Shown here piece after piece: positions 5,855 through 10,121 of a DNA stretch of 34,403 bases (the first letter of the stretch is position 1; each line of letters begins with the position of its first letter). The position numbers and the translations under genes were made by a program. A model generated the notes under the pieces. The model searched no databases, had not been told where the DNA came from, and saw only the letters and a program-made list of their open reading frames with translations. This DNA is from Desulfobulbaceae bacterium (GTDB taxonomy: Bacteria > Desulfobacterota > Desulfobulbia > Desulfobulbales > Desulfobulbaceae), in contig WGCP01000066.1 of NCBI GenBank assembly GCA_015493715.1, positions 1 through 34,403 on the forward strand, written 5' to 3'.

Positions 5855-6976
5855 TTAAATGACACGGAGTTCGGCATGCAGGGCCCCTGCTGCCTTGATG
5901 GCCTGAAAGATGGCGATCAGGTCTCTGGGCGTGGCACCGATGGCGTTGAGTGCCTTGGCAATCTCACCGATGCTTACGCCCATATGCAGGACAACCAGGT
6001 TGCCCTCATCTTCGGTGACATCAATCTTTGTCGTCGGAGCGGCCACGGTTTGACCGGCGGCCAGGGGATTGGGCTGGGAGACATCCAGGCCCTCTGAAAT
6101 AACCAGATTCAGGTTGCCGTGGGAAATTGCGACGGTGGCAATGCGGACATCCTGCCCCATGACAATGGTGCCGGTTCGTTCATTAACCACGATACGGGCC
6201 GGTGAATCAGCTTGTACATCAAGATTTTCCAAGTCAGCGACAAATCCGACCACATTCCCTTTATACTTGAGGGGCATTAGGACCTTAACGGTTCCACCGT
6301 CGGGCGAATGAGCGGTATTGGGTCCGAACCTGCTGTTAATGGCCTCGGTCATCCGGGCAGCGGTGGTGAAATCGGGTTCTTTAAGTTCATAGAGCAGGTC
6401 ACCGCTTGGCGGCAGCTTCCAGCCGACGGCTCGTTCCACGATGGCGCCGTTTGCTATACGGCCTGCAGTGGGGAAATTTTTCTGCACTTTTGCCGTCTTA
6501 CCGCCGAATGCGATGGAACCGACGGCAAGGGGTCCCTGGGCGACTGCATAGGTCCTGCCGTCCGGTCCCTTGAGGGGAGTCATAAGCAGGGTGCCGCCGG
6601 AAAGACTGTCTGCGTCACCCATGGTGGAGACCTGGACATCCAGACGAGAACCGGGCCGGGCAAAGGGTGGCAGGTTGGCCGTCACCATGACGGCGGCCAC
6701 GTTGTCTGTTTTCATCTGCCTGAAGACATCGGGCGTAATCGACATGCCCAGTCTTTTCACCAGATTGATCAGAGCCTGCCTGGTAAAGACGGATTTCTTG
6801 ATATCATCACCGGTGCCGTTTAAACCCATGACCAGGCCATACCCTAATAACTGGTTATCACGCACGCCCTCAATGGCGGCAAGATCTTTAATTCGTGCGC
6901 CCTGGGCCGTGCCGACCAGGATGAGCAACAGGCCTAGGCAGCAGGTAAAGCTGATGAGAAAATTTAGTTTTTTCAT
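5855..6976 (-). CDS. flgI: Flagellar P-ring protein FlgI
   Basis: RIKDLAAIEGVRDNQLLGYGLVMGLNGTGDDIKKSVFTRQAL...; start set at MKKLNFLIS (signal peptide) of the 5855..7042 ORF. Confidence 0.96.
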   Translation of the reverse strand: MKKLNFLISFTCCLGLLLILVGTAQGARIKDLAAIEGVRDNQLLGYGLVMGLNGTGDDIKKSVFTRQALINLVKRLGMSITPDVFRQMKTDNVAAVMVTANLPPFARPGSRLDVQVSTMGDADSLSGGTLLMTPLKGPDGRTYAVAQGPLAVGSIAFGGKTAKVQKNFPTAGRIANGAIVERAVGWKLPPSGDLLYELKEPDFTTAARMTEAINSRFGPNTAHSPDGGTVKVLMPLKYKGNVVGFVADLENLDVQADSPARIVVNERTGTIVMGQDVRIATVAISHGNLNLVISEGLDVSQPNPLAAGQTVAAPTTKIDVTEDEGNLVVLHMGVSIGEIAKALNAIGATPRDLIAIFQAIKAAGALHAELRVI

Positions 6977-7025
6977 GCCGAAAAACCGTGCAGTGATTGT
7001 AGAGACAAAATTTATTAAGTGCACT

Positions 7026-7436
7026 TCAACTATTACCACCAACAGAGCGCCATCCTATTTCCTTTCTAATACGTGCAATTTGTTGGATGAACTTATCATT
7101 CGACCTCTCTGTGGCAATTCTTTTTGGGCTTTGGCCTGCCCAACGATATATCTGCTCAATTGAACCATGCCCGCGCTTTAGAGCTTTTGCCAACAAGCAC
7201 ACCGATTCAGTGTTGGCTGGCATATTTAGGACAAGCCTAAGTTCGGAATCCGTCCATGGCTGGCCCTTATTGGCAGGACGGTCGTTTTTTTCTTTTTCAA
7301 TTTTAATTGATTCATTTTTTATTAGCGATAATTTCTCGTCCCAACTTACACCCTCAACGGGCGTTGATAAAAGAGCACAAATCTTTTCTTGGAACTCCCT
7401 TTTCTTCATTTTCGCCCTCATGCAGATTTTATTCAC
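7026..7436 (-). CDS. Hypothetical protein, possible Myb/HTH-like DNA-binding protein, inserted between flgH and flgI
   Basis: GQPWTDSELRLVLNMPANTESVCLLAKALKRGHGSIEQIYRWAGQ...IARIRKEIGWRS; not a flagellar family; more AT-rich than its neighbours. Actual start may be an internal Met. Confidence 0.7.
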   Translation of the reverse strand: MNKICMRAKMKKREFQEKICALLSTPVEGVSWDEKLSLIKNESIKIEKEKNDRPANKGQPWTDSELRLVLNMPANTESVCLLAKALKRGHGSIEQIYRWAGQSPKRIATERSNDKFIQQIARIRKEIGWRSVGGNS

Positions 7437-7491
7437 TTAACTTTTTTTATGTTTTTATGGTCAGCCAATTTGGTCCAGGCTTGCTGGTTCA

Positions 7492-8220
7492 TTAAAACGG
7501 CCATACCCGGTCAACGATCCGAGTCAGCCAGCCGGGCCGTTGTTTGTCTGATATAACGCCCTTGCCGGTATAGGCAATCTGTGCATTGAGGATTTTACTC
7601 GAATCAATTTCATTGGCGGCGCTGATATCAAAGGGACGGATTATGCCCGTCAGGTAAATAATCTGGTTTTCATTGTTGACCACCACGGATTTTCCACCGC
7701 GAATTTTCATGTTACCGTTGGGATATATCTTGATAACCTGGGTGGTTAAAGTGGCCAGCAGGTCTTCCTTGCGGGTTGTTTTTCCGCTTCCCTTGAAGTT
7801 ATTTTTGAAATTGGCCTCAATCAGATTAGATGGATCAAGGTTGGGATTATTTTTAACAATTGTTTTCTCAAGTCCGAAAAAGGTCGGAATTCCGGCCTTG
7901 ATTCCCGTATCCCGGTCCGTCTGGGTGGAGGCTTCTTTGGAGGCGCTGGCCTTCTCCTGGATAACGACCGTGACGATATCACCCACATGATGGGCCCGGA
8001 GATCGGCGATCCAGTTGCCTTCATCCCCAGTGAACAGGGAACCGGGGGAGATGGGTTTGCTGTGGACGACCACGGGCGCTTCCAGTGGCTCGGGCACCTG
8101 CATGACGGTTGTTTTTTTCTGGGTGCATCCCGAAGAAAGAGCGACAAGGATAACTATTGTGGCGAGGAATCCGAAAAATGATTTCCTGGACATTAACGAT
8201 AGAGATACGTGCTGGTTCAT
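7492..8220 (-). CDS. flgH: Flagellar L-ring lipoprotein FlgH
   Basis: Lipobox LSSGC; SLFTGDEGNWIADLRAHHVGDIVTVVIQEKASASKEAST...; start set at MNQHV of the 7492..8256 ORF. Confidence 0.95.
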   Translation of the reverse strand: MNQHVSLSLMSRKSFFGFLATIVILVALSSGCTQKKTTVMQVPEPLEAPVVVHSKPISPGSLFTGDEGNWIADLRAHHVGDIVTVVIQEKASASKEASTQTDRDTGIKAGIPTFFGLEKTIVKNNPNLDPSNLIEANFKNNFKGSGKTTRKEDLLATLTTQVIKIYPNGNMKIRGGKSVVVNNENQIIYLTGIIRPFDISAANEIDSSKILNAQIAYTGKGVISDKQRPGWLTRIVDRVWPF

Positions 8221-8221
8221 A

Positions 8222-9175
8222 TCAAAACTCCACGGAAACGACGCCGGGTGCATCAACTTTGCAGTAGACCAGTTTGGAGGAACTGATGTTTTTTACCCGA
8301 ATGAAATCACCGGGCCGGCCGTCCATGGTTGCAATACCTTTTGTGGATATCCGTAAAGGCCCTCTGCTGGCGATAATTTCGACCGGTTCACCCTTTTTGA
8401 TGACCGGCGGCGGTGCCACATTCATGGTATCAAGCGGTTTGCCGGCGCGAATAGTGCGTTTTGCCTGCATCCCGACGACCCGGTCCATGGAAAAGTAAGG
8501 CGCGTCAAGCTTGCTGATGTCCTGGCGGATCATTTCCACCTGGTCTGGAGTAATGATGGATCCCCTGCGGACGTTGACCGCTGCGGTTGCAACCGAGGCC
8601 AGGGCTTCAAGTTTACCGCGAACAGTACAGTTTTTGACGGTCCTGCCGTCAACTGCAAAGAGGATGTTGAAACTTGAACTGCCGATTATCGTTGGCTTGG
8701 AGGGTCGTACGGTATAGGTTATTTTTCCGGTGGGCAGGATTATGTTCCCCGGTGTCCGGACCGAAGTGAATCGTATTTCGGCATCGGGCAGGCTTTGCAG
8801 ACGGCGGCCGATAAATTCAGCGACAATCCGTTTCATTCGCTCTTTGGTGATGACCTGTCCCTTTCTGGTCACCTCTATTGATTTGGTGCCGCTCCAAGTG
8901 ATATCAGCAGTATTTTTGTCATAGCGCATCATCTCGATAATCGAGGATGCCTTGATGGTGCGGCTCTTGCCCGGATTAGGGGAAGCGGTAATACGTTCAG
9001 CGGCCAGGGTCTCTTCTTCGCTGCCTTCCGGAGTGATGGAGGCGATATCGCCAAGATGAACAAATGGTGCGGATACCAGCGCCTTTTCGTGTAGCTCTAC
9101 CCTGATGGCAAATGCCTGTGACCCGAGGAACAGCAGGGACAGGACAAGGGCATGGATGAACAATGTTTTTTTCAT
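8222..9175 (-). CDS. flgA: Flagellar P-ring chaperone FlgA
   Basis: C-terminal SAF domain: VNVRRGSIITPDQVEMIRQDISKLDAPYFSMDRVVGMQAKRTIRAGKPL. Confidence 0.93.
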   Translation of the reverse strand: MKKTLFIHALVLSLLFLGSQAFAIRVELHEKALVSAPFVHLGDIASITPEGSEEETLAAERITASPNPGKSRTIKASSIIEMMRYDKNTADITWSGTKSIEVTRKGQVITKERMKRIVAEFIGRRLQSLPDAEIRFTSVRTPGNIILPTGKITYTVRPSKPTIIGSSSFNILFAVDGRTVKNCTVRGKLEALASVATAAVNVRRGSIITPDQVEMIRQDISKLDAPYFSMDRVVGMQAKRTIRAGKPLDTMNVAPPPVIKKGEPVEIIASRGPLRISTKGIATMDGRPGDFIRVKNISSSKLVYCKVDAPGVVSVEF

Positions 9176-9178
9176 ATT

Positions 9179-9964
9179 TTAGACCATGTTGACCACTGTA
9201 CTCATCATTTCGTCCGAGGTTGATACTGCCTTGGAGTTGATCTCAAAGGCCCTCTGAGCGGTGATCATACGGGCTATTTCCCCGACAAGATTGACGTTGG
9301 ACTGTTCAAGAAAACCCTGCTGCAGGGTGCCGTATCCATCACTGCCCGGCGTGCCGATAGTGGCGGTGCCCGAGGCCTCGGTCTCTCGAAAAAGGTTACG
9401 GCCGATGGAAAGGAGACCGGCATCATTGACAAAGGTGGCCAGGTCGATATTTCCAAGCTCCGTTGATTGGGTATCATCACCAAGAAGTGCGCTGACGACT
9501 CCGGTGGCGCTGATGGTCACCTCGCGTGCGTTTTCAGGGATGGTGATAGCGGGAACGATCGGATTGCCTTCCGGGGTGACCAGTCGGCCTGTACCGTCAC
9601 GATTCAGATTGCCTGCCCTGGTGTAGGCGGTATTGCCGTCGGGGAGATCGACCTGGAAAAATCCCGCTCCCTCGATGGCAACGTCAAATTCATTGGAGGT
9701 CTCAACTATATCGCCTTCCGTAAAGACCTTGGTGACGGCCGCCGGGCGGACACCAAGGCCGACTTGAATGCCCGAGGGCGACTGGGTGCCGGCATCTGAG
9801 GTCGGCGCCCCGGGAACCTGGACCTGTTGATAGATTAAATCCTGAAAGGAGGTAACGCTTTTTTTGAAACCTGTGGTTGAAACGTTGGCCAGGTTATTGG
9901 CAATAACGTCCATGTTCAGGTTCTGTCCCCTCATACCGGTGGTTGCGGTCCATAAAGATCTCAT
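9179..9964 (-). CDS. flgG: Flagellar distal rod protein FlgG
   Basis: MRSLWTATTGMRGQNLNMDVIANNLANVSTTGFKKSVTSFQDLIYQ; 261 aa. Confidence 0.97.
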   Translation of the reverse strand: MRSLWTATTGMRGQNLNMDVIANNLANVSTTGFKKSVTSFQDLIYQQVQVPGAPTSDAGTQSPSGIQVGLGVRPAAVTKVFTEGDIVETSNEFDVAIEGAGFFQVDLPDGNTAYTRAGNLNRDGTGRLVTPEGNPIVPAITIPENAREVTISATGVVSALLGDDTQSTELGNIDLATFVNDAGLLSIGRNLFRETEASGTATIGTPGSDGYGTLQQGFLEQSNVNLVGEIARMITAQRAFEINSKAVSTSDEMMSTVVNMV

Positions 9965-10030
9965 TACTGCTCTCCTGGTTGCTGCCCTTGTTATCAGAAA
10001 ATAGCCCGTGTAGTCATGTCGTTTCAGGCT

Positions 10031-10059: not shown

Positions 10060-10121
10060 TGTTGTGGCTGTGGCCTGAAAATCCGGTCCAGCCATGCTGG
10101 TTTATGCATAGAAAGAAAAGA

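Follow-up and report, generated by a model that had tools for sequence, protein, structure and literature searches.

The flagellar ring genes flgH and flgI usually lie next to each other, and an open reading frame (ORF) that separates them raises the question of where it came from and whether it serves the flagellum. Such an ORF occurs in a Desulfobulbaceae bacterium (assembly GCA_015493715.1), within a 34,403-nucleotide stretch of contig WGCP01000066.1 that was analyzed as a whole and is here called the window. The original prediction, made from the letters of the sequence, described a co-directional, AT-richer ORF for a small basic, Myb/HTH-like protein, and proposed either a horizontally acquired passenger gene or a new regulator co-transcribed with the ring genes.

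The gene between flgH and flgI

The predicted ORF was present at 7026 to 7436 on the minus strand, flanked by matches to PF02107 and PF02119 and on the same strand as flgH and flgI. The gene order on this strand is flgF, flgG, flgA, flgH, the inserted gene, flgI and later flg genes. The features of the locus are as follows.

7492 to 8220, minus strand: flgH (L-ring), the upstream neighbor (PF02107, E 1e-57)
7472 to 7489, minus strand: AACCAGCAAGCCTGGACC, a decayed repeat end of 18 nt with 2 mismatches, separating the flgH stop from the presumed cassette edge
7435 to 7441, minus strand: GTTAAGT, a GTTRRRY integron-type core (R'-like) at the 5' edge of the presumed cassette, with an inverted partner past the stop
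7410 to 7436, minus strand: GTG-start extension of the ORF, probably untranslated, with no support from homologs
7026 to 7409, minus strand: coding sequence of the inserted gene, 127 amino acids, with an ATG start from which homologs align and, just 5' of it, a GAGG that is a possible ribosome-binding site
7014 to 7020, minus strand: ACTTAAT, an R''-like partner (6 of 7 positions; expected ACTTAAC) at the 3' edge of the presumed cassette, shortly after the stop
5855 to 6976, minus strand: flgI (P-ring), the downstream neighbor (PF02119, E 5.5e-140)

Alignment of the window protein with four homologs (43 to 65% amino acid identity) contained 27 invariant columns, and codon differences among the homologs amounted to 56 to 68% at position 3, compared with 19 to 36% at position 2. 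Because divergence sits mainly at codon position 3, the window ORF is a real gene whose protein is under constraint. Since the homologs align from MKK at position 7409, the start most likely lies at the ATG there and not at the GTG at 7436; the predicted ORF exists but probably starts later, with the nine codons that begin at the GTG probably left untranslated. The gene is indeed AT-richer than its surroundings, with a GC content of 42.5% versus 46 to 56% in the neighboring flg genes and a third-position GC content of 39% versus 54 to 63%. No promoter or terminator match was found within the insert, and co-transcription with the flg operon is plausible from the arrangement of the genes.

To place the insertion, 96 genomes were compared (the organism's own and 95 of its genus, family and order), and only the organism's own carried the inserted gene. 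Among the seven genomes of the genus in which flgI was found, own included, one has the gene. The distance from flgH to flgI is 518 nt in the window, whereas it is 34 to 61 nt in five of the six congeners (G001 and G003 to G006), whose junction is empty; the spacing in the window is unusual for the genus. In the sixth congener (G002) the distance is 279 nt and is filled by a non-coding repeat. The window and its two closest congeners (92 to 93% FlgI identity) have in common the final ~28 nt of host spacer, TGTCTCT.CAATCACTGC.CGG, and because these congeners share that stretch, the insert of ~470 nt can be placed between it and the flgH stop. As expected of a mobile cassette, the gene forms a discrete unit, and its site is empty in five congeners. 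Judged from these comparisons, the locus is a lineage-specific insertion between flgH and flgI. In another genus (G022, locus L017), the flgH-flgI spacer of ~200 nt contains a hairpin of great predicted strength (-106 kcal/mol for the RNA), which is another insertion into this spacer.

Relatives of the gene and the predicted protein

Searches of ~1,350 genomes by protein or profile yielded one clear further relative (genome G179, copy L007) besides the copies already known; among these genomes the family is rare. Identity to the window protein was 65% for the Arsukibacterium copy, 48% for the copy in G179, which belongs to the same phylum as the window, 45 to 46% for three Pasteurella multocida records and 43% for Acutalibacter. 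No DNA match was found in Escherichia coli genomes. Weak search matches at three loci (L008, L067 and L068) lay over unrelated genes or in a stop-containing frame and were discarded, as was the idea of a phage gene, for which there was no match among phage records or viral contigs.

The relatives occupy a variety of settings. The Pasteurella copy lies between hisF and hisIE, where the gap is 426 nt versus 26 to 65 nt in eight other gammaproteobacterial loci; in the nearest relative (L069) the gap of ~140 nt is too short for the gene. The G179 copy lies between an amidohydrolase gene and a gene for a FAD-binding subunit, which are adjacent, without the inserted gene, in a family-mate (G107). 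Both copies have the orientation of their host operon. The Acutalibacter copy follows a PHP + SLFN_AlbA_2 (PHP/Schlafen-type) gene, and the Arsukibacterium copy sits amid small co-directional ORFs. The neighborhood check named in the original prediction found no flagellar locus around the Pasteurella, G179, Acutalibacter or Arsukibacterium copies. Two Pasteurella records (CP084164.1 and NZ_CP113523.1) are labeled as plasmids of 260 to 275 kb with his genes, leuS and rsmA; they look like chromosome fragments carrying a plasmid label. With absence from 95 relatives, empty sites in congeners, and relatives in other classes and phyla, the prediction of a horizontally acquired passenger was well supported, and it is nearly certain that the window gene was acquired laterally in one way or another.

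The window protein has a pI of 9.7, as its description as basic had implied, and four of the five family members are basic; the peptide segments quoted in the prediction were correct. Two AlphaFold models agreed on seven helices with moderate confidence (mean pLDDT 73 and 76). The conserved region comprises helices at 54 to 62, 67 to 76 and 84 to 91 (block pLDDT 73 to 88), had no significant fold match, and carries the central core 'KGxPWxDxxL...RGxGSIEQIxRWA'. As in Myb/SANT or homeodomain-type HTH proteins, W-T-D-x-E-L opens helix 1, the third helix contains Arg/Trp, and the modeled core is three-helical. However, no HTH, Myb or SANT model in Pfam or NCBIfam was matched significantly (the best PHROG match had E 0.038), nor was the sequence of any PDB structure, and fold comparison against PDB and BFVD gave no significant match. 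The Myb/HTH-like assignment fits the order of the modeled helices but, finding no counterpart in the family and structure searches, is still a guess.

No Pfam or PADLOC family was found for the window protein, and NCBIfam gave nothing significant. One member resembles DUF2385 (PF09539) over a short stretch near 'F.RGY' (E 2.7e-4, below the curated cut-off), whereas no member passes that cut-off and the window protein has no match at all; matches to DUF2385, PDC-M62A and PHROG were weak and taken as chance. The models thus predict an all-helical protein with a three-helix, HTH-like core, which is probably an HTH-type nucleic-acid-binding module; because no family or fold search reached significance, nucleic-acid binding is a favored guess and not a result. 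On sequence grounds, the copies form a small protein family, so far undescribed, whose core is strictly conserved and which is present in at least three phyla.

Integron-like core sites, integrases and a dispersed repeat

The flanks of the window gene carry a pair of integron-like core sites, GTTAAGTG and CACTTAAt, with one mismatch. GTTAAGTG lies ~32 nt 5' of the ATG and CACTTAAT lies right past the stop; TTAAGTG is complementary to CACTTAA over seven bases, and the terminal C of AAC is altered. Random flank pairs passed this looser, one-mismatch test at a rate of 2.6e-4, a figure to be read knowing that the test was picked after the window sequence had been seen. At L007 the pair is exact: GTTAGGC precedes the start by 9 nt, GCCTAAC follows the stop by 10 nt, and the R' core is identical to that of the aadA5 cassette, the positive control for the core-pair test. 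Among 305 ORFs of the fetched loci only L007 passed the exact test, against a pass rate of 4.7e-5 for randomly paired flanks. No core-site pair was found at the Pasteurella and Acutalibacter copies.

The flanks of the window copy and of L007 contain no complete attC (R''-L''-L'-R' with a foldable bottom strand), and a pattern finder for complete attC sites returned no convincing site at the flank of any copy; an attC-like stretch in Arsukibacterium folds weakly (z -1.3). Because no complete attC remains, a cassette origin is only probable and not proven. A fresh cassette insertion should leave an attC; therefore, its later loss must be assumed for both the window copy and L007.

Integrases were scored with the IntI model TIGR02249 (curated cut-off 265 bits). 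The organism's own genome encodes two IntI-type integrases (382 and 414 bits), G179 has one above the cut-off and the Arsukibacterium genome (G475) has two, so that three of the four host genomes searched carry IntI-type genes; none was above the cut-off in the Acutalibacter genome or in 14 control genomes. In Arsukibacterium, a second tyrosine recombinase gene adjoins intI, followed by an apparent IS91-type transposase gene (L054, ~8016 to 10000). The organism's own genome also contains an integron whose cassette-like ORFs lie upstream of intI and share its orientation (L051, 1 to 2466, contig C134). These small ORFs are flanked by complementary cores, GTTCTGTG/CACAGAAC and GTTATGC/GCATAAC, which by themselves are not far above shuffled background. 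The cores of its attC-like sites, GTTCTGT and GTTATGC, deviate from GTTRRRY.

A dispersed, genus-specific repeat with the hairpin end AACCAGCATGGCTGGACC and no ORF also marks the locus. Copies lie in the window (from 10102 down to ~9990, minus strand) and at L015 2644, L052 2743 and L059 2509, 2758 and 9506, which places the repeat between flagellar genes and on two contigs that carry integrases. A perfect repeat end stands in the flgF-flgG spacer (10085 to 10102), and the 18-nt stretch at 7472 to 7489, right behind the flgH stop, matches the hairpin end with two changes. Because repeat ends and copies occur in the flgH-flgI spacer, DNA has entered this spacer on more than one occasion in the genus. 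Some of the insert upstream of the gene is similar to another repeat, so the insertion history was not a single event; the decayed end accounts for part of the non-cassette insert.

Origin of the insert and its meaning

We consider it somewhat more probable than an even chance that the window gene is a cassette-derived, promoterless passenger that entered off-target, is carried by the flg transcript and has no dedicated flagellar role. The gene would have started as an integron cassette between GTTRRRY and RYYYAAC core sites. We infer that IntI then inserted it off-target into the flgH-flgI spacer; its attC is assumed to have been lost after insertion, and its expression would come from riding on the flg operon transcript. 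The route is a known one, since IntI can act off-target at GNT/GTTRRRY sites (PMC10127599) and, as cited in PMC12444791, attG sites allow cassettes into many genomic loci. Like such cassettes, the window gene is small, promoterless, AT-shifted and co-directional with its host unit, its genome encodes IntI, and its GTTRRRY ... RYYYAAC bounds are near-exact (exact in L007); unlike them, the window copy and L007 have no complete attC downstream. The window protein also resembles uncharacterized cassette proteins (for example, the set in PMC3548836), which are short, novel, without a family and laterally mobile, but it has no significant solved-structure match and lies outside any proven attC array here.

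A clearly less probable alternative is that illegitimate recombination, or joint arrival with the genus-specific hairpin repeat (REP/MITE-like), brought in the passenger, and that the resemblance to core sites in the window is a coincidence. The absence of a complete attC fits this route, as do the decayed repeat end (AACCAGCAaGcCTGGACC) immediately past flgH and the repeat copy that G002 carries in the same spacer. However, the flgI side of the insert has no second repeat end, repeat copies elsewhere lack such a gene, and the exact core sites of L007 would be left unexplained. Less probable again, and in our view unlikely, is a distinct one-gene mobile unit: a single-gene family without its own promoter that repeatedly enters the spacers of conserved operons, in the host direction and across distant phyla, and that may be a former cassette fixed by loss of attC.

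That the gene is a recruited HTH regulator, expressed along with the ring genes from within the flg operon and now controlling genes of the flagellum or others, is very unlikely. Its orientation, the basic protein and the HTH-compatible helix order would suit such a role, but the gene is confined to one of the seven genus genomes with flgI, its relatives never lie in flagellar loci and there is no HTH family match; absence from relatives and the non-flagellar loci of homologs thus spoke against the regulator offered by the original prediction as a flagellar function. Least likely is an anti-phage or selfish accessory cargo protein that brings a benefit unrelated to the flagellum. The gene preceding the Acutalibacter copy matches a defense model (Ppl, E 2e-9), and a macro-domain gene and two large genes that as a pair look McrBC-like are close to the Arsukibacterium copy; however, the sole defense-family match of the protein itself is weak, partial and limited to one member (E 0.0027), and the remaining contexts are metabolic or flagellar operons. 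A flagellar accessory gene was rejected on distribution, the gene being absent from the 95 relatives and not conserved in flagellar clusters.

If the cassette origin is true, this locus would be a natural example in which integron cargo left its array and settled in a core operon, a process that so far has been known mainly from experiments and plasmids. The small protein family with its strictly conserved core is ready for structural work. A flagellar function does not necessarily follow from the presence of an additional gene between flgH and flgI.
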